Source: an uncultured Flavobacterium sp. (lineage in GTDB: Bacteria > Bacteroidota > Bacteroidia > Flavobacteriales > Flavobacteriaceae). Taken from it: a stretch of DNA of 38,195 bases. Both the position numbers and the translations under genes were made by a program. The stretch spans positions 1 through 38,195 of the forward strand of contig NZ_CAMLMK010000016.1 of NCBI RefSeq assembly GCF_946481155.1, given 5' to 3'. Of this stretch, positions 12,619 to 22,678 are shown one piece after another. Under the pieces are notes generated by a model. That model saw nothing but the letters and a program-made list of their open reading frames with translations. It had not been told where the DNA came from and ran no database searches. The stretch's first letter is position 1. Every line of letters begins with the position of its first letter.

Positions 12619-13170
12619 TTAAATGCTTTCCGCTACAATTTCCGGATCAAACTCCATATGATCTATTACTTCTGCAACATCAGGTTTAGAAGCTTTAAGG
12701 GTATTGAACTTTTCCAATTGCTCCGATCTGTCTTCTTCACCGCTGAAATAAGGAAAAACATCCATGATAGGAGATTCCGAAATAGCCGGTACGGTATACT
12801 CTCCCATAGTATTTTTCATTGCTGTGATGGTGTTATCATAAGCTTCTTTCACATCGTTGGCCTGGACTAACAGATAAAAATTTGTCTTACGTTCTTTTCC
12901 GCTTTCTTCATCGTAAGCCAGTAAAGAAACTTTCGATTTGAACCAGCGGTCGGAATTCTCGAAAGGATGAATTTCAGCATAATTGGCTACTTTTATATTT
13001 GTGATTTTAAATTCTTCACTGACATAAGCCGCCATTTCTTCATTGATTCTGCTTTCGGCTTCCGTATAGGATAAAGCATCTACTAAATATGGTTCTGTGA
13101 TAACCTTTTGCACCCCCGTATCATCAATTTTTCTGTATTTTACTTTGCATTCATACCAAATTGCACCCAT
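12619..13170 (-). CDS. DUF4494 domain protein
   Basis: This 183-residue cytosolic-looking protein has no signal peptide or membrane segment. The opening GAIWYECKVKYRKIDDTG, the TEPYLVDALSYTEAESRI segment and NFYLLVQANDVKEAYDNT match what I know of DUF4494, a family confined mainly to Bacteroidota with no known function. Residues after ~135 are acidic and less conserved. It has its own -7 element (13194-13201) and converges on the M61 gene. No functional partner is visible. Confidence 0.8.
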   Translation of the reverse strand: MGAIWYECKVKYRKIDDTGVQKVITEPYLVDALSYTEAESRINEEMAAYVSEEFKITNIKVANYAEIHPFENSDRWFKSKVSLLAYDEESGKERKTNFYLLVQANDVKEAYDNTITAMKNTMGEYTVPAISESPIMDVFPYFSGEEDRSEQLEKFNTLKASKPDVAEVIDHMEFDPEIVAESI

Positions 13171-13193
13171 AACGATTATTTTTTTAAGGATGG

Positions 13194-13201
13194 CAAAGTT
13201 A
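13194..13201 (-). promoter_or_regulatory. Likely -7 element of the DUF4494 gene
   Basis: The minus strand reads TAACTTTG, a full match to TAnnTTTG, 24 nt before the ATG. A -33 TTG is present only at a longer spacing of about 29 nt. Confidence 0.4.
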
Positions 13202-13338
13202 AATTTTTAAAGAAACCGGAGGCGTAATTTCAAAAATAGATATTCACAATTCTCGGTTTGTTAGGCAAATCACCTTTTCCCTTCGCCATTTTTTGCGTAT
13301 CTTTAAACTGTCTAACAACAACTTAAAATACAAATCAT

Positions 13339-13590
13339 ATGGCAACTTATAATCAATCTGAATGGACAGAACTCAACCATAGTCTGTATAAAAGTTTTCT
13401 TTTTGCTGATTTTTCCGAAGCCTTTGGTTTTATGACCCGGGTAGCGCTTCTGGCACAGCAACTTGATCATCATCCTACATGGACAAATACCTGGAATAAG
13501 GTTGAAATTTGGTTATCGACGCATTCTGAAGGAAATGTTGTTACTGAGAAGGACAGGGAATTGGCTTCCAAAATCGACCGGTTGATCTGA
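13339..13590 (+). CDS. Short pterin-4a-carbinolamine dehydratase (PCD/DCoH)
   Basis: This 83-residue protein carries the PCD signature QQLDHHPTWTNTWNKVEIWLSTHSEG. It has the His-His pair and the downstream W/N/V positions of the active site, followed by VTEKD. The family dehydrates 4a-hydroxytetrahydrobiopterin in pterin recycling. It is shorter than the usual ~95-110 residues, and the loss is at the N-terminus. The usual GLTxxD turn reads NVVTEKD. No in-frame upstream extension with a better start was seen. No aromatic amino acid hydroxylase gene is in the window. A TATCTTTA at 13298-13305 may be its -7 element. Promoter distance and the motif both support a real gene. Confidence 0.85.
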   Translation: MATYNQSEWTELNHSLYKSFLFADFSEAFGFMTRVALLAQQLDHHPTWTNTWNKVEIWLSTHSEGNVVTEKDRELASKIDRLI

Positions 13591-13614
13591 TTGATTTCCT
13601 AAAATACTAAACAT

Positions 13615-13655
13615 AAAAAAACGCTGTAAAAATCTAAGTTCTACAGCGTTTTTTA
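13615..13655. terminator. Bidirectional terminator between PCD and the fibre protein gene
   Basis: Stem AAAACGCTGTA / TACAGCGTTTT around a 13-nt loop, with A and T flanks. It serves the convergent PCD (plus) and fibre (minus) genes. Confidence 0.85.
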
Positions 13656-13674
13656 TTTGTTTTTTCAGCGATCC

Positions 13675-16600
13675 TTATTTTGAATTAGTGCTGATGGTAT
13701 TGTTGAACATGCTTTTTATCTGATTAATGTCAGCTTCCGTTTTCGTTAAGCGCTCATTCATATCGGTATTTTCAGCTTTCAGGCCGCGAATCTGAGCTTC
13801 CTGTTGGTTGATGATTTTGATAAGCTCCTGTGTAGCGGAAATATTCAGTGTGGAAAGCGCCTCATAATCAACAGTATGAAAATCGTTTACTTCACGTCCG
13901 AAAACGAATACTTTCCCCTCATCTTTCACTGCAACATTGAAGCCATATTCATCAGCCTGCAACACTGTCACAAGTTCTGTCCTGTTATCGAAAACCAATT
14001 TCACGCGGTCTCCTTTTTGAAGGGTGTTTTTCAGGATTACTCTTCCGTCTTTAATTTTTGCAATGGTATAAATATCCGGAATCACATCTGTAATGGTAGC
14101 TACAGCCTGTGGGTATACCTTTTCAACCTGTTGTGCAATAACTTTTTTATTAATTCCCATTCCTTTTCCGATGGAATCCTTGAAGGTATAATCAGTAATT
14201 TCGATTTTATTTAGGGTCTCAAGGTCTTTTGCGCTGTTGGATATTCCTTTGATATCTTTAATCCTTGCATCAGAGAAGGCGTTGAATTCTGTAGCTGCTA
14301 TCCTTCCAGTTGTATAAAGTGAGTAACCTGCAGTCGAATTGGTTAGACCCACCGTTCCGGCACTGTTCAGGTAAGCATATGTCTGGAAAGAATTTTGTGT
14401 CCCATTGATGACTACTTTGGCTTGGGTTACAGAATTGGTTCCGATACCCACATTTCCTCCGCCTGTTACCATTTGAATATTCCCGGTATTATCGGAATTG
14501 AGCTCCAACACGCCAGTTCCTTTACTTCTGACCTGCAATCCAAGATCTGCTGGTGTATTAGCTCCGTTTGGATAGATTGTAGACCTGGTCAAGCTATTCA
14601 TCTCGATATCTGCATTCCCACCAGCACTGCTTGGCATAATTGATCCAACGACTTCAAGTGGGGCACGCGGCGTTGTCGTACCGATTCCTACCCTACCGTT
14701 TCCTTCACCATCAATTGTCATCACCTTTTTTGTTCCGATAGTCCCTACGGCATCCGTACCAAAATCCCATACGGTAAAATCGATCGCATTCCCTGTATCC
14801 GAACCTGACATATGGCGCGATTTGATGGAGTGCATGTAAGTATTAGTGCCACTGTATCCGAAGGCAATTTGCGAGGAGTTGAAGGCATTATTATTGTTTC
14901 CGCTGCGAAGCAATAGTGAATTTGTACCTGAGTTGTGGCCATAGACATCAAGATAGGCAGCTGGTGCCGACACCCCAATTCCCATAAAACCGCCACTTGT
15001 AAATCTGGCGCGTTCGGCATTATTAGTCTTGAATACAAAATCGATTGCATCGGTTGTGCCTAAGAAATTGGTTCCCGCTACCGTTCCGGCATTCCCGCTT
15101 AAGGCCCATGCATTTGTTGTAGGTACACTTCCCCAAACTCCGGTTCCTAATAAAACCTGTGACGCTGTCCCCCCGGCAAGTGGCGTAAGAGTTCCGTTGG
15201 CATCCGCCTGAACTACCCTTGTACCGGTTCCGGCAAGTGACGAGGTGCGTACATTACCAACAACCTCCAGTTCTTCAGCAGGAGCTGTAGTTCCTATTCC
15301 GACTTTAACCGCATTAGCGCCTGTGCCTCCTAAAACCATGCTGTTACTTGCGGCTACTTTAGCATTATAACCAATAGCAGTGGCGTTGGTAAGTGCTCCT
15401 GAGCTTACGTCTGCATTAAAACCAAGAGCGGTATTATTGGTTCCCGTAGTATTGGCGTTAAGCGCACTTGTTCCGAATGCCGAATTGCCGACTCCGGTTG
15501 TGTTGTTTTGAAGTGAAAAATATCCAAATGCAGCAATATCGTTCCCTGTGGTATTCAAATTCCCGGCCTGATATCCGGCAACTGTGTTCCTGCTTCCCAA
15601 AGTCGTGCTTTCCAAAGCGCGGGCTCCAACTGCTGTATTGTTACTCGCTGCGGTGCTACTGTTCAAAGCTATACGCCCTACAGCGGTATTATTGTTCCCT
15701 GTTGTGTTGGCATTCAGTGCATGCGCGCCAATTCCTGTGTTAAATGCACCCGTGGTGTTTACACCCAATGCACTATTTCCGTTTGCGACATTGTCGTACC
15801 CGGTAGTATTTAATCTCATTGCATTAGATCCGGTAGCTGTATTGTATGACCCTGTGGTATTTGTTTGTAAGCTTCGGTAGCCTAATCCGACATTATCAGT
15901 TCCTGTTGTGTTTGCATTACCTGCCTGATATCCGATGAATGCATTGATATTATTAGTCAGATCATCATTTGCTCCTGCACCTTCACCTACAAAAACAGAT
16001 TGCCCGGTGTTCAACGTTTCAATCTGGCCTTTGTTTGTTATTCTTGTACGGATAACATTATTAGTACGGATATCTAAAGCCTGGTTGTCCGTTGTTCCGA
16101 TGAAGTTCGTGCCGTTAACTGTGCCTGCATTACCTGTAAGCGACCAGTCATTTGTTAGTCCTGGCACAGTACCCCAAACACCTGTTCCCAATAAAACCTG
16201 CGCTGCTGTTCCTGCGGCTAAAGGCGTTAAAGTTCCGTTGGTATCTGCCTGCACCATTCTTGTTCCGGTACCCGCCAGTGAAGAAGTGCGGACATCACCA
16301 ACAACCTCAAGCTCTTCAGCAGGGGCAGTAGTTCCTATTCCGACTTTTACTGCATCAACGCCTGTTCCCCCTAAAACCATACTGTTACTGGCGGCTACTT
16401 TGGCATTGTAACCTATTGCCGCGGCATTAGTAAGTGCTGCACTCGTAACATCAGCGTTGGTTCCTAAAGCAAGATTGTTTGACCCTGTATTGTTGGTCCC
16501 CAAGGCATTTATACCCAAAGCCACATTATTATTTCCTGTTGTATTGGAAGATATTGCCTGGAAGCCCACAGCAGTGTTATTTGCACCTGTAGTGTTATCG

Positions 16601-19600
16601 AACATTGCACTCGTTCCAATTGCTGTATTCAGTCCTGCAGTAGTGGTAAATAATAAGGCGTATTTACCTAAACCAACGTTGTTGCTTCCTGTAGTAATAT
16701 TAAGTAAAGCTTCACTTCCCACTGAAGTATTATTTCCTCCAGTGGTATTTTTACTTAAAGCCGCATAACCTACAGCGGTATTACTTGAGCCTGTAGTTGT
16801 AGCTTTTAGCGCTTCATAACCTATAGCCGTGCCACGGATTCCTGTATAATTTTGAAGTGCTCTGTATCCTACAGCAGTTGCTCCGTTGGAAACACTGTTT
16901 TGTAAAGCCTGGTATCCGATACCGGTAGTAAAGGCTGATGTTGCATTGGTCTGACCCGCCTGCATACCAATAAGCGTATTTCTGTTATCTGTCAGATCAT
17001 CACCTGCACCTGCGCCTTCCCCTACAAATACTGAATTACCTGTATTTAGTGTTTCAATTTGTCCTTTGGTAGTGATTCTTGTACGGATGGTGTTATCGGT
17101 TCTGATATCCAAAGACTGGTTGTCTGTGGTTCCGATGAAATTCGTACCATTGACTGTTCCTGCATTTCCTGTAATCGACCAGTCGTTGGTAATTCCAGGC
17201 ACGCTACCCCACACGCCTGTTCCTAATAAAACTTGCGTTGCTGTTCCTGCAGTTAGCGGTGTTAAGGTTCCATTTGCATCTGCCTGTACCACTCTGGTTC
17301 CGGTACCGGCAAGGGAAGAAGTTCGGACATCACCAACAACCTCTAATTCTTCAGCGGGAGATGTAGTTCCGATTCCGACCTTTACCGCATCAGCTCCGGT
17401 TCCTCCAAGGACCATACTGTTGCTGGCACCTACTTTAGCATTATATCCGATTGCTGTTGCATTTGTCAAAGCAGCTGAGCTCACATCTGCACCAAATCCG
17501 ACAGCAGTATTATTACCCCCTGTAGTATTTGTTGCCAAAGCGGTCCATCCCAAGGCAGTATTTCTTCCACCGGTTGTATTCGCCATTAACGACCGCCCAC
17601 CTACTGCTGAATTATTAAAACCGCTTGTATTAAGAAACAGTGAATTGGTACCGATTGCGGTATTGTTTTGTCCTGTAACTATATCTCCCAAGGCGTAATA
17701 TCCGACTGCTACGTTTTCCGATGTGCTGACCGACTTACTTAAAGCCTGACCTCCAAGAGCGACATTTCGGGACCCTGTAGTATTTGAACGTAGGGTCTCG
17801 GCTCCCAAAGCAGTGTTATCTGCTCCGGTAGTGGTTGCAGTGAGCGCCTGGTGCCCGATTCCGGCATTGCTATAACCCGTAGTAGTTGCATTTAGCGCAG
17901 CCTGTCCAACTGCAGTATTATAATTTCCTGTAGTAAGATTACCTAAAGCCGTATTACCTACACCCACGTTTCTTTGGCCTGTAGCAGTAAGTTTTCCTGC
18001 ATTTATTCCGCTAAAGAAACCGGTATTGGTATGAATCAATGTATTGGCATCAGAATAAATAATACCTGTTGTCGAAGTAGACGCCGGTAACCTGAAGTTT
18101 TTTGTTATCTGAAGCTGTTCTGCAGGAGTACCGGTTCCGATACCCACAAATCCGGCACCTGTCACTCTTGCCTGTTCGGTGTTGTTAGTTTTAAGAACCA
18201 AATCCACGTTGTCTGTGGTTCCTATAAAATTAGTCCCTGCTACTGTACCTGAATTACCTGTTAGTGACCAGTCATTTGTTAATCCCGGAACAGTTCCCCA
18301 AACACCTGTACCTAACAAAACCTGAGAAGCTGTACCTGCTGCCAGAGGTTTAAGAGTACCCCAGTCGTCTGCCTGAACGACTCTGACTCCTGTTCCGGCG
18401 AGCGATGATGTGCGGACTTCACCAACAACTTCCAATTCTTTTGCAGGTGAGGTAGTACCAATACCAACTTTACCGTTCTCATTACCGTCAATAGTCATCA
18501 CTTTTTTGGTTCCCATGTCTGATATACCATCAGTACCCTGGTCCCATAAAACGAAATCGATTGCGTTTCCGGAATCAGCAAAGGAATTATGGCGGGAAAT
18601 TATGGAATGTTTATAGTCACTGCCTCCATTCCAGGAAAAAGCAATTTGCGAAGAGAGAAACTCGCTGTTATTATTTCCGCTTCTTAGTAAAAGGGAATTA
18701 GAACCGCTGTTATTTCCGTATATATCAAGATATGCTGAAGGAGCGGCAACGCCAATACCCATAAAACCGGTACTTGCAAATCTTGCACGTTCAGCATTAT
18801 TTGTCTTGAATACAAAGTCAATTGCATCTGTTGTTCCTATAAAATTAGTACCTGCTACTGTCCCTGAATTACCAGTTAGTGACCAATCATTTGTTAGCCC
18901 CGGAACAGTTCCCCAAACGCCAGTTCCTAATAAAACCTGAGCAGCAGTTCCTGCAGCTAATGGTGTCAAAGTTCCATTTGTATCTGCCTGTACCATACGC
19001 ATTCCTGTACCGGCAAGAGAAGATGTCCTTACGTTTCCGACTACTTCCAATCTTTCTGCTGGTGCCGTTGTACCAATACCAACATTAGCATTGTTACCAA
19101 GAACAAGACTGTTGCTGGCGCTTACACTGGCATTAGCTCCAACAGCCGTGGCATTGGAAAGATTTCCTGAGGCAACATTCGCGGCATAACCAACAGCAGT
19201 ATTATCAGAACCTGTAGTATTTCCCGCCAGGGCTAAATCCCCAGCTGCAGTATTTCTGTTTCCTGATACGTTAAAGCTCAGGGATGAGCTTCCCACCGCA
19301 GTATTATTGCTACCCGTAGTATTCGAGAATAAAGTATTTTTTCCAAGTGCCGCATTCCAGTTTCCTGTAGTATTCGAGTTTCCTGACAAGTCACCCACAA
19401 CAGTATTCGAAACACCTGTTGTATTTGAAGGTAACGACAAATCTCCCAATGCGGTATTTGCATATCCCGTCGTGTTGGAACTAAGGGCATAATATCCGAA
19501 GGCAGAGTTTCCGCCTCCAGTTGTATTGGCAGTCCCTGCATAATGTCCTACAAATGCATTTTGGTTATTGCTTAAGTCATCATTGGCACCTGCCCCCTGA

Positions 19601-21738
19601 CCAAGAAATACCGAATGTCCTGTGTTAAATGTTTCTATTTGACCTTTCGTAGTAAATCGGGTTCTCAGGATATTATTTGTCCTAAGATCGAAGGCCTGGT
19701 TATCCGTCGTTCCAATAAAATTGGTCCCTGCTATAGTCCCAGAATTACCTGTAAGCGACCAGTCATTTGTTAACCCGGGTACGCTTCCCCAAACGCCTGT
19801 CCCCAATAATACTTGTGAAGCGGTTCCTGCTGCTAATGGCGTTAAGGTCCCATTTGTATCTGCCTGCACCATTCTTGTTCCTGTACCGGAAAGGGACGAT
19901 GTCCTGATATTTCCATCCACATGGAGCATTTCTGCCGGGGTTACTGTACCTATACCAACATATCCGTTATTGTTTATTCGCATTCGTTCCATATATCCAA
20001 TCCCGTTCACTGAAGTAAAGAAACGGTGATAACCATCCGTATCCCAATCTCCGGGGCCTGCCATATAGTCAATACTCCATCCGGCTGAGTGATTGATTTT
20101 GGATCCCATGTCAGCCCAGTCTGTAAGCTGGATTTTATCTCTGGAATCATTGCTATAAAGCGTAAGCGTTCCATTTTCTATTTTTTCATTTCCGGTAACA
20201 TGAAGTTTGGTGTCTGGTGATGCTGTCCCGATACCTACATTTCCGGCAGATGAAATACGTGCGGCCTCAGTTGCATTGGTTTTAATCACTAAATCCTGAC
20301 TATCGCTCGTTCCTATATAATCCGTTCCGGCCGTAGTTCCGGCATTTCCGGCTTTAAGCCAGGCATTCGGATCGGATTCCGTAATAAGTGAACTGGCCGG
20401 GGCCCATGCAACGGCACCTGCACCATTTGTTTTCAGAACATATCCGTTCGTCCCGTCTGTGGTTGGGAAACTGTAAGCACTGTTGATATTTAATGTTCCA
20501 TTCACGCGAAGCAAATTTGTCGCGAAGTCCCCATAGATAAGTGGATTGACAGTATTACTATTATCAATGTATAATTTATTACTACCCGTTTCGGAATACC
20601 CTGCAAGATAACCAAGCATTACGTTACCTGAGCCTAAAGCGCTGTATCCTGCTTCTGTTCCGACAGCCGTATTGGAACCTCCAACAATATTATTATGCAA
20701 AGTCCCATAACCTAGTGCTGTATTACGGTTTCCGGTAGTATTTGCAGGCATTGCATCACGACCAAAAGCTGAATTGTTGAATCCGGAGGTAGTCGATGAC
20801 AATGCACCATTTCCTACGGCTGAATTGAATCCCCCTGTTAGAGCACCTCCTAAAGTTCCATATCCTATTGCCACGTTATCTGATCCTGTAGTAGCACCAC
20901 CCATGGACTGGCTTCCTACAGTTGTATTTCTCGATCCCGTAGTGCTGTTTTTAAGGGATTGTGCCCCAATTGCCGTATTATCGCCGGCTGTCGTAGACGA
21001 AAGCATAGATTGGTATCCAAAAGCGGCATTATTGAATCCGGTAGTTAACGAATTCATAGACAAGTGGCCAAAGGCACTATTAATATTTCCAGTGGTAATA
21101 GCAGTCAATGCATCGTTTCCTACTCCCGTGTTACCAAACCCTGTAGCAGTTAGGCTCCCGGCATTTAACCCGCTAAAAAAACCGCCGTTAGTATGGAGTA
21201 ACCTGTTTGTAGTGGAATAAATAATACCCGCAGTGGAAGTTGACGCCGGAAGACGAAAATTTCCTGTGATCTGCAACTGCTGGGCAGGAGTAGCAGTACC
21301 TATTCCAAGGAAACCGCCACTTGTGAATCGTGCGCGTTCGCTATTATTTGTTTTAAACACAAAATCTTTTGCATCTGTTGTCCCTAAGAAATTGGTTCCC
21401 GGAACAGTCCCCGAATTACCTGTTAATGCCCAATCATTTGTTGATGAAGCCAGCCCAATCCATGTTGAGGTGGTGCTGTCCCAATAGTAAAATCCGGGTG
21501 GTTTAATCCCAACAGCGGTAGTCAGGAAAACCATCATACCATTTTGTGCAGTTGTCGGATTCGTTGCCGGAAAAACATCTACTTTAGGAATTAAAATACC
21601 ATCTGTATTTGCCGGAGCGGCCTGATTGCTGGAGCGAATGTCAAGTTGTGCTCCTGGAGTTGTTGTGTTGATACCTACCTGACCAACTGCTGTGCTAAAA
21701 GACAATAAAAAAAGTAACTTATACAATTGCTTTCTCAT
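13675..21738 (-). CDS. Giant modular fibre-like protein with C-terminal S74 chaperone domain
   Basis: This 2687-residue protein starts at the ATG at 21736-21738 with a signal peptide (MRKQLYKLLFLLSFSTAVG) and then QVGINTTTP. The body has eight modules. Each opens with a linker of the NDWSLTGNSGTVAGTNFIGTTD type near residues 100, 460, 660, 950, 1155, 1520, 1860 and 2210. Five modules carry long runs of a ~14-residue NTTGxxNTAVGxxAL repeat like YadA-head or tail-fibre beta-rolls. Most are separated by VGIGTxxPAExLEVVGxVRTSSLAGTG units. The C-terminal ~200 residues match the S74 intramolecular chaperone: SDARIK with Ser2489 and Lys2494 as the likely self-cleaving dyad, HTVDYEALSTLNISATQELIK, and a final coiled coil. 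The domain likely trimerises the fibre and is then cut off. There is no T9SS sorting domain, lipobox or membrane anchor. It is probably extracellular or on the surface; the target is unknown. Confidence 0.85.
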   Translation of the reverse strand: MRKQLYKLLFLLSFSTAVGQVGINTTTPGAQLDIRSSNQAAPANTDGILIPKVDVFPATNPTTAQNGMMVFLTTAVGIKPPGFYYWDSTTSTWIGLASSTNDWALTGNSGTVPGTNFLGTTDAKDFVFKTNNSERARFTSGGFLGIGTATPAQQLQITGNFRLPASTSTAGIIYSTTNRLLHTNGGFFSGLNAGSLTATGFGNTGVGNDALTAITTGNINSAFGHLSMNSLTTGFNNAAFGYQSMLSSTTAGDNTAIGAQSLKNSTTGSRNTTVGSQSMGGATTGSDNVAIGYGTLGGALTGGFNSAVGNGALSSTTSGFNNSAFGRDAMPANTTGNRNTALGYGTLHNNIVGGSNTAVGTEAGYSALGSGNVMLGYLAGYSETGSNKLYIDNSNTVNPLIYGDFATNLLRVNGTLNINSAYSFPTTDGTNGYVLKTNGAGAVAWAPASSLITESDPNAWLKAGNAGTTAGTDYIGTSDSQDLVIKTNATEAARISSAGNVGIGTASPDTKLHVTGNEKIENGTLTLYSNDSRDKIQLTDWADMGSKINHSAGWSIDYMAGPGDWDTDGYHRFFTSVNGIGYMERMRINNNGYVGIGTVTPAEMLHVDGNIRTSSLSGTGTRMVQADTNGTLTPLAAGTASQVLLGTGVWGSVPGLTNDWSLTGNSGTIAGTNFIGTTDNQAFDLRTNNILRTRFTTKGQIETFNTGHSVFLGQGAGANDDLSNNQNAFVGHYAGTANTTGGGNSAFGYYALSSNTTGYANTALGDLSLPSNTTGVSNTVVGDLSGNSNTTGNWNAALGKNTLFSNTTGSNNTAVGSSSLSFNVSGNRNTAAGDLALAGNTTGSDNTAVGYAANVASGNLSNATAVGANASVSASNSLVLGNNANVGIGTTAPAERLEVVGNVRTSSLAGTGMRMVQADTNGTLTPLAAGTAAQVLLGTGVWGTVPGLTNDWSLTGNSGTVAGTNFIGTTDAIDFVFKTNNAERARFASTGFMGIGVAAPSAYLDIYGNNSGSNSLLLRSGNNNSEFLSSQIAFSWNGGSDYKHSIISRHNSFADSGNAIDFVLWDQGTDGISDMGTKKVMTIDGNENGKVGIGTTSPAKELEVVGEVRTSSLAGTGVRVVQADDWGTLKPLAAGTASQVLLGTGVWGTVPGLTNDWSLTGNSGTVAGTNFIGTTDNVDLVLKTNNTEQARVTGAGFVGIGTGTPAEQLQITKNFRLPASTSTTGIIYSDANTLIHTNTGFFSGINAGKLTATGQRNVGVGNTALGNLTTGNYNTAVGQAALNATTTGYSNAGIGHQALTATTTGADNTALGAETLRSNTTGSRNVALGGQALSKSVSTSENVAVGYYALGDIVTGQNNTAIGTNSLFLNTSGFNNSAVGGRSLMANTTGGRNTALGWTALATNTTGGNNTAVGFGADVSSAALTNATAIGYNAKVGASNSMVLGGTGADAVKVGIGTTSPAEELEVVGDVRTSSLAGTGTRVVQADANGTLTPLTAGTATQVLLGTGVWGSVPGITNDWSITGNAGTVNGTNFIGTTDNQSLDIRTDNTIRTRITTKGQIETLNTGNSVFVGEGAGAGDDLTDNRNTLIGMQAGQTNATSAFTTGIGYQALQNSVSNGATAVGYRALQNYTGIRGTAIGYEALKATTTGSSNTAVGYAALSKNTTGGNNTSVGSEALLNITTGSNNVGLGKYALLFTTTAGLNTAIGTSAMFDNTTGANNTAVGFQAISSNTTGNNNVALGINALGTNNTGSNNLALGTNADVTSAALTNAAAIGYNAKVAASNSMVLGGTGVDAVKVGIGTTAPAEELEVVGDVRTSSLAGTGTRMVQADTNGTLTPLAAGTAAQVLLGTGVWGTVPGLTNDWSLTGNAGTVNGTNFIGTTDNQALDIRTNNVIRTRITNKGQIETLNTGQSVFVGEGAGANDDLTNNINAFIGYQAGNANTTGTDNVGLGYRSLQTNTTGSYNTATGSNAMRLNTTGYDNVANGNSALGVNTTGAFNTGIGAHALNANTTGNNNTAVGRIALNSSTAASNNTAVGARALESTTLGSRNTVAGYQAGNLNTTGNDIAAFGYFSLQNNTTGVGNSAFGTSALNANTTGTNNTALGFNADVSSGALTNATAIGYNAKVAASNSMVLGGTGANAVKVGIGTTAPAEELEVVGNVRTSSLAGTGTRVVQADANGTLTPLAGGTASQVLLGTGVWGSVPTTNAWALSGNAGTVAGTNFLGTTDAIDFVFKTNNAERARFTSGGFMGIGVSAPAAYLDVYGHNSGTNSLLLRSGNNNNAFNSSQIAFGYSGTNTYMHSIKSRHMSGSDTGNAIDFTVWDFGTDAVGTIGTKKVMTIDGEGNGRVGIGTTTPRAPLEVVGSIMPSSAGGNADIEMNSLTRSTIYPNGANTPADLGLQVRSKGTGVLELNSDNTGNIQMVTGGGNVGIGTNSVTQAKVVINGTQNSFQTYAYLNSAGTVGLTNSTAGYSLYTTGRIAATEFNAFSDARIKDIKGISNSAKDLETLNKIEITDYTFKDSIGKGMGINKKVIAQQVEKVYPQAVATITDVIPDIYTIAKIKDGRVILKNTLQKGDRVKLVFDNRTELVTVLQADEYGFNVAVKDEGKVFVFGREVNDFHTVDYEALSTLNISATQELIKIINQQEAQIRGLKAENTDMNERLTKTEADINQIKSMFNNTISTNSK
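14600..21450 (-). repeat. Long internal repeats in the fibre gene (eight modules of four types)
   Basis: Module type order from the N-terminus is A-D-C-B-A-C-C-B. Type A (FRLPASTST...HTN.GFFSG): about 21450-20370 and 18280-17190. Type D: about 20370-19770. Type C (QIETLNTG.SVFVGEGAG): about 19770-18890, 17190-16160 and 16160-15130. Type B (YLDIYG.NSG.NSLLLRSGNNN): about 18890-18280 and 15130-14600. Nucleotide similarity between copies is obvious by eye in the linkers. Boundaries are approximate. Confidence 0.8.
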
Positions 21739-21884
21739 GGGGGAGATTTTGGATTTATAGCTTTGACGACAAAACTTTTTTATTCTTGCGCTTACACTTA
21801 AATTATTTTTGAAGTACAAGAAAATCAAGGATTAAAAAGGAATACTTTTGTCGGTAAAGCTTTAAAGTTTTTCTTAAAAAAAAG

Positions 21885-21915
21885 CAAAAATATAGTACTA
21901 TATTATTAAAAACAA
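21885..21915 (-). promoter_or_regulatory. Promoter of the fibre gene, with a palindrome in the spacer
   Basis: The minus strand has TTG, 20 nt, then TATTTTTG (full -7 match). Transcription would start near 21878, giving a leader of about 140 nt. The spacer contains the 12-bp perfect palindrome TATAGTACTATA (21891-21902), which overlaps the -7 element and could be a repressor site. Confidence 0.6.
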
Positions 21916-22021
21916 ATTAGTGATTCAATTTCAACAAACATATTTTCAGCACATTAAAAAATATAAATAAAGTCTTACAGATAGGAATATTCTGCAAATG
22001 AAAAAGTTGTTAATTGAAATT

Positions 22022-22678
22022 TTAGTGATTGAAAAATAGCTCATGTCGCTTTCCCTTATTCTCAAAAATCACCCTGGACCAAAATGGTTGTGCTTTATTT
22101 GAAGTCGGAAACCAATTTCTGTTTTCACCGGAAATAATAAATAAGCCCCTGTTGTCACCTAAAACAGAAAAAGTCACATTTTTAGGCTGCATTACGAAAA
22201 AATCAGTTTCATATTTTGTATTGATCTCATCGCAAAATTGCAGGACATCTTCCACTACAAACCCTATTTCGCTGATTTTGATAAAGGAATCGGCGTTAAA
22301 AATTGCTCCGGAAGTATTTTTGAGATCATAACGAACGATGCATTCCAGAATATTGCCGTTGTTATCATAAAAGTAAAACGATTTGGCGTGCCAGTTGGAG
22401 AAGTCGATAATTTCATGGTCTTCAGACGGAATCAATGCTGCTCTTTTCCGAATCCAATCCAATGCTTCCATAAGTTTATTTTCCGGAATATCAATGGCGA
22501 AATGATACACCGGTTTTTGAATTTCATCCGATAAATGAAAATACAACTTTGAGGTTCCTATCTGAAATGAAAGAAGTTCATCCGTTTTCGCTGTCACTTT
22601 CAAACCTAACTTTTTCCCGTAAAAGAATTCGGTTTCCGAAAGTGAATTTGTTAACAGATGAACTTCTGAAAGTTGCAT
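22022..22678 (-). CDS. VOC (glyoxalase/bleomycin-resistance) family protein
   Basis: This 218-residue cytosolic protein has two VOC-type beta-alpha-beta-beta-beta halves. The first (about 1-118) has VHLLTNSLSETEFFYGKKLGL, FHLSD and SFYFYDNNGNILECIVR. The second (about 130-215) has KISEIGFVVEDVLQFCDEI and FSVLGDNRGLFIIS. His and Glu residues suitable for metal binding are present in the first half (HFAIDI, NILEC), but no substrate can be assigned. It starts 9 bp after the katG stop and is almost certainly cotranscribed with it, hinting at a detoxification role. Confidence 0.82.
   Translation of the reverse strand: MQLSEVHLLTNSLSETEFFYGKKLGLKVTAKTDELLSFQIGTSKLYFHLSDEIQKPVYHFAIDIPENKLMEALDWIRKRAALIPSEDHEIIDFSNWHAKSFYFYDNNGNILECIVRYDLKNTSGAIFNADSFIKISEIGFVVEDVLQFCDEINTKYETDFFVMQPKNVTFSVLGDNRGLFIISGENRNWFPTSNKAQPFWSRVIFENKGKRHELFFNH

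Follow-up and report, generated by a model that had tools for sequence, protein, structure and literature searches.

The Gene and Its Product

The window analysed here, 38,195 nucleotides of a contig from an uncultured Flavobacterium sp., contains on its minus strand one intact gene for a giant fibre protein of 2687 aa (13675–21738, with the ATG at 21738 and the stop at 13675), exactly where the original prediction had placed it. If started at a TTG, the frame reaches 21828, an extension for which we found no support. Some 150–180 nt before the ATG, on the same strand, lies a match to TTTG-N20-TATTTTTG (21885–21916), which is promoter-like by the Bacteroidota consensus; it is a consensus match only, and the pattern occurs nine times in the window when overlapping matches are counted apart.

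The protein lacks cysteine altogether. Its first 19 residues, MRKQLYKLLFLLSFSTAVG (21682–21738), resemble a signal peptide by sequence and by a simple hydrophobicity score, in agreement with the earlier proposal. They are followed by an N-terminal domain (residues 20–100; 21439–21681; pLDDT 86–89 across its middle 40 residues), which coincides with Pfam family PF26696. The shaft consists of eight modules: M1 (type A, residues 103–459; 20362–21432), M2 (type D, 460–659; 19762–20361), M3 (type C, 660–951; 18886–19761), M4 (type B, 952–1156; 18271–18885), M5 (type A, 1157–1519; 17182–18270), M6 (type C, 1520–1864; 16147–17181), M7 (type C, 1865–2210; 15109–16146), and M8 (type B, 2211–2426; 14461–15108). 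A last segment (2427–2488; 14275–14460) precedes the predicted cut. The S74 end comprises the core (2489–2546; 14101–14274) with Ser2489 and Lys2494 of an SDARIK motif, an inserted beta-rich domain (2555–2614; 13897–14076; pLDDT 85–91), and a long, coiled-coil-like C-terminal helix (2625–2684; 13687–13866; pLDDT 39–78).

Modules, Linkers, and Heads

The common opening linker W-x-x-x-GN-x-GT occurs eight times, at residues 103, 460, 660, 952, 1157, 1520, 1865, and 2211, so that the claim of eight modules behind a single opener holds. Modules were typed on their residues 29–150, over which the type A pair M1/M5 is 63% identical, the type B pair M4/M8 70%, and the type C trio M3/M6/M7 48–57%, against 23–47% for cross-type pairs (some of these over few aligned residues). 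Because identities within types exceed those between them, the types cluster when aligned, which bears out the originally proposed order A-D-C-B-A-C-C-B. When entire modules are compared, the shared linkers make the types harder to tell apart (M5 and M7, for example, are 63% identical).

A closing linker, ...LEVVG...LLGTGVWG, ends six of the eight modules; M1 ends differently, and M8 continues into the tip. The closers are 75–94% identical as protein but agree at only 41% of fourfold sites (191 of 469 comparisons), where 27–43% would be expected by codon family. The silent sites of the shared linkers are near saturation, and such high protein identity over such low fourfold identity indicates that the linkers are held by selection and not by recent copying. 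This strong conservation over silent change, together with the great length, the repetitive heads, and the lack of cysteine, would also suit a structural part of an extracellular matrix or sheath, in which length and stability matter and ligand binding does not. We regard such a role as unlikely, since some segments resemble segments of mosaic adhesive trimer (MAT) fibres and phage fibres by sequence and since the Bdellovibrio relatives are described as surface adhesins (PMC10769870).

Heads that repeat every 17 residues are found in types A and C, and types B and D have cargo of other kinds. Identity at lag 17 is 0.33–0.46 in the heads, against a maximum of 0.19–0.25 in shuffled sequences, and exceeds the shuffles in all five heads. 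Capping-loop-like motifs number 11, against a shuffle mean of 0.006; the pattern was adapted from the motif printed in the MAT paper, which reports it for MAT proteins and myelin regulatory factor (MyRF; PMC10769870). M2 reaches 15.5 bits against Phage_T4_gp36 (cut-off 26). The YadA-head repeats suggested earlier fare less well: PF05658 stays below its cut-off of 25, scoring 17.9 and 15.3 bits at the head–neck junctions of M7 and M5, two of the three head modules scanned. Together with a best viral model match that bears the name LbR_YadA-like (E 5.5e-6, query TM 0.23), these scores are what one could cite for a classical trimeric autotransporter (type Vc) with a degenerate anchor. There is very little chance that this is the right description, as no YadA anchor family matches and the C-terminus consists of S74 plus a long helix.

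The S74 End and Its Predicted Cleavage

The C-terminal S74 domain that had been predicted was recovered by HMM search, PF13884 scoring 30 bits on the whole protein (cut-off 22) and 34.8 bits when the C-terminal piece was scanned by itself; the SDxRxK motif is intact. This motif is invariant in all 15 aligned sequences, and SDxR(I/F/V/L/Y)K is present in 83 of the 120 listed homologs. Ser2489 and Lys2494 are five residues apart, the spacing reported for S587/K592 of MyRF and S911/K916 of endoNF (PMC8326128). By analogy with these proteins, we infer that the chain cleaves itself at Ser2489 within a trimer. The predicted products are a 248.5 kDa chain, counted from residue 20, and a 199-aa C-terminal fragment of 22.3 kDa, close to the 22 kDa estimated beforehand.

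In a profile search of the PDB with the C-terminal end, MyRF ranks first (7dc3, E 6.8e-11), its matching stretches flanking the insert, ahead of a long tail fibre subunit (6f45, E 3e-5), Bd2133 (8ond, E 5e-4), and weaker matches to 8oml (0.035) and 8on4 (0.05). Among solved structures, the S74 unit (13687–14274) is thus closest by profile search to MyRF and not to phage S74, and it contains in addition a beta insert of some 60 residues that is modelled with good confidence. Outside the insert and the helix, the C-terminal model is poor (mean pLDDT 50). A Foldseek search of the PDB gave nothing under E 0.001 for either model, the best match of the N-terminal model being 8ond (E 0.13).

Export, Sorting, and Anchoring

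The absence of a T9SS domain, a lipobox, and an anchor, as originally described, is upheld in the scans made here. Searches of Pfam and NCBIfam at E ≤ 0.01 gave no T9SS sorting domain. Pfam showed no membrane anchor or YadA anchor family, whether the whole protein was scanned or its C-terminal piece with the threshold relaxed to E 10. Having no cysteine, the protein cannot contain a lipobox. No signal known to direct passage across the outer membrane was seen in the fibre.

The fetched loci yielded 51 distinct frames carrying S74 or its motif. Two of these, both Flavobacterium genes, were chosen by eye from their C-termini for a sorting-domain scan, and in each S74 is followed by a T9SS type A sorting domain (L014, 35.9 bits; L056, 25.3 bits; cut-off 23). 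One homolog, P0060, has PF18962 in the search table and no match in NCBIfam. At least some kin of the fibre thus use T9SS. One might therefore regard the present protein as another T9SS substrate, or one otherwise sorted by its C-terminus, like L014 and L056. This is very unlikely, given that it ends in a predicted long helix and gives no sorting-domain match at the threshold above. In L014 (499–2094) and L056 (1317–3200), cleavage at S74 would part the sorting signal from the fibre.

The N-terminal domain need not be an anchor, because it is repeated inside some relatives. An iterated HMM of this domain matches all 45 PF26696 proteins and two others among the 120 homologs listed; at least two copies are found in seven of these 47 proteins with the iterated HMM and in one of 17 with a single-sequence search, L001 having four. 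The occurrence of PF26696-type domains several times inside L001 and P0104 makes the domain a shaft module as well.

Cassette Order in Relatives

The protein search returned 2355 homologs at E ≤ 0.001 among 7987 candidates scored. The four closest have similar ends and different arrays. P0003 has C-C-C-C plus a short end module, P0004 has A-D-C-B, i.e., the first half of the order seen here, P0005 has A-C-C-D, and P0006 has a more distant mixture. The survey of module order proposed with the original prediction thus turned up the same cassettes in other orders, and the order A-D-C-B-A-C-C-B in none of five relatives (P0003–P0006 and P0017). The M6 cassette illustrates this: it is sixth of eight here, first of five in P0003, second of four in P0005, and probably third of four in P0004.

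Cargo identities were measured, at the protein level only, against the modules of P0003–P0005 and those of the protein itself. The M6 cargo is 80% identical to module 1 of P0003 and to module 2 of P0005, and 67% to module 3 of P0004 over three quarters of its length; within its own protein no module exceeds 58%. Similarly, M7 is closer to P0003 module 2 (75%) than to its own best counterpart (60%), M1 to P0004 module 1 (82% versus 55%), and M8 to P0004 module 4 (77% versus 70%). M2, the sole D here, finds P0005 module 4 at 58%. M3 and M5 are near ties (63% outside versus 60% inside, and 57% versus 55%), and M4 is the exception, being 70% identical to M8 and 65% to the best outside module. Overall, seven of the eight modules have their best cargo match in a relative, M3 and M5 by 2–3 points only.

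In a tree built from 19 cargoes of types A and C, M7 pairs with P0003 module 2 (97/96) and M1 with P0004 module 1 (99/98), and the five A cargoes fall together (100/99). M6 groups with P0003 module 1 and P0005 module 2 (92/97, just below the level starred by the program), and M3 and M5 are placed without resolution. The succession M6–M7 matches modules 1–2 of P0003. Compared with P0003–P0005, the N-terminal domain is 81–88% identical and the S74 end 73–84%; the tip, at 56–71%, is no more conserved than the cassettes.

Because seven of eight cargoes match relatives best and the closers are only 41% identical at fourfold sites, the module types predate these proteins and have been reassorted. 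Cassettes have been re-ordered, gained, or lost among relatives, which gives the array the look of an ancient, reshuffled repertoire and not of the outcome of recent duplication. The repeated segmental duplication originally put forward is therefore not sustained, most cargoes being closer to relatives and the silent sites of the closers near saturation.

Module mosaicism occurs in phage fibres and trimeric autotransporters. It is also known from MATs (PMC10769870). A tentative extension, which we consider possible but would not press, is that the fibre evolves as a cassette array, in which a few interchangeable shaft types move between positions and genes, bounded by one strongly conserved linker, while its two ends, the N-terminal domain and the self-cleaving chaperone, remain in place. 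The linker would then be both a folding joint and an exchange point, so that a lineage could alter fibre length and binding faces and leave export and trimerisation as they are. Cassette shuffling is the most interesting side of this fibre, which is notable in size and shuffling and ordinary in kind.

Genomic Context

The neighbours of the fibre gene that belong to named families are metabolic or housekeeping, and no phage or injection family was found in the nine neighbouring genes scanned (five against Pfam, seven against NCBIfam, three of them against both). The phage-like parts of the fibre lie in a non-phage setting. A receptor-binding fibre of a prophage, tailocin, or extracellular injection system could in principle lie alone, and PHROGs matches to virion structural and tail families reach 1e-129, 100 phage records (four of them named Flavobacterium phages) have similar stretches, and S74 genes are reported in eCIS operons (PMC8213781). 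However, three of the four strong PHROGs matches have their best stretch in the head repeats, none of the phage records reaches 80% query coverage, all matches are below 60% identity, and a scan of viral contigs for close relatives gave none. Given also the signal-peptide-like start and the lack of phage families in the nine genes scanned, such an origin is very unlikely.

The KatG protein of the window is up to 86% identical to those of Flavobacterium genomes (the genus of F. caeni). Five genomes were read whose KatG is closest to that of the window. Four of them retain both IcmF and KatG within the stretch covered, three of these also DUF4494; the fifth (L099) has the KatG side only. In none of the four genomes keeping both is the fibre gene found between IcmF and KatG; the space there measures 2.6, 1.7, 4.5, and 0.16 kb and contains different genes or is empty. 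The fibre gene is thus in a variable spot between conserved genes. The interval 13170–22022 of the window, from DUF4494 to the glyoxalase-like gene and katG, has other genes in each close genome and is possibly a local insertion hot spot. An ORF of 83 aa on the plus strand (13339–13590), a putative pterin-4a-carbinolamine dehydratase, has a counterpart of the same length in genome G087.

Relation to Known Fibres

Searches of the PDB with the single protein sequence gave two matches, both to Bdellovibrio fibres (8ond, E 1e-3; 8ojn, E 0.0045), the second being a weak match of M8 to a fibre tip. A profile search with the N-terminal piece matched 8ojn alone (E 5.5e-5). The structures matched by sequence are those of Bd2133, Bd3182, and Bd1334 of Bdellovibrio bacteriovorus, and they point to a modest kinship with MAT fibre segments. 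MATs of the S74 subgroup (Bd3182 and kin) share with the present fibre a signal peptide, beta-helical fibre segments, the capping-loop motif, and a C-terminal S74 with SDxxxK (PMC10769870). According to the same paper, however, MATs are typically about 1,000 aa, against 2687 aa here; their diversity is described at the tip, whereas this fibre varies in the composition and order of its shaft; and their conserved beta N-terminal domain has about 130 aa, against about 80 aa for PF26696 here.

Other known proteins resemble the fibre in part. Bacteroidota proteins with PF26696 and/or PF13884 (P0003–P0006, P0017) have similar conserved ends and are mostly unnamed or called 'tail fiber domain-containing'; P0003–P0006 share its cassettes in other orders. 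The S74 unit of MyRF belongs to a membrane-bound transcription factor, that of the fibre carrying the extra beta insert instead. Phage S74 tail fibres and spikes are alike in the S74 core and the head-like repeats, but they are virion proteins, and most of the present protein is covered by no phage record. The kind of protein is already known, and the present one is an unusually long member; fibres of this sort occur in other bacteria according to the MAT paper (PMC10769870).

We consider this protein to be, with good probability, a secreted and probably homotrimeric adhesive surface fibre that works like the Bdellovibrio MAT fibres, with an S74 chaperone that is folded on and then cut off. 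Weighing against this view are the recurrence of the N-terminal domain inside relatives, the absence of a recognised outer-membrane crossing signal, the lack of Foldseek matches under E 0.001, the poor C-terminal model outside insert and helix, and a tip conserved no better than the cassettes. The chain would be exported by Sec by way of its signal peptide. As in MyRF and phage S74 proteins, three chains would then register at the C-terminal coiled coil and the S74 unit, from which the beta-rich shaft would fold. In the trimer, Ser2489 and Lys2494, both present in the sequence, would cut each chain at the serine, and the 22.3 kDa chaperone would be shed. What is left, about 249 kDa per chain with the N-terminal domain, eight cassettes, and the tip, may bind glycans or other surfaces along the shaft and at the tip. 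Over evolution the shaft acquires, drops, and rearranges cassettes between ends that stay conserved, as the differing orders show, and this could set the length and the array of binding faces. If S74 proteins are surface adhesins like MATs, many proteins, often named after phage tails, are mislabelled, and cassette arrays such as this one offer a direct handle on how such fibres diversify.

Distribution among Flavobacterium

Among the literature searched, no paper devoted to S74 proteins in Flavobacterium was listed. S74 is present in 59 of the 199 Flavobacterium genomes searched, and partial matches to the whole protein occur in five of the ten close genomes searched. The C-terminal domain finds a match at E ≤ 0.001 in 18 of 398 Flavobacterium genomes; the match covers more than 200 of the 261 residues in six of them, and in a seventh genome it comes in two pieces on two contigs. 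At two loci (L090, 5549–16127; L093, 171–8000), S74 ends 43–44% identical to the one described here stand behind series of large same-strand genes, most of them unknown, in which DNRLRE and kelch or beta-propeller families match weakly.
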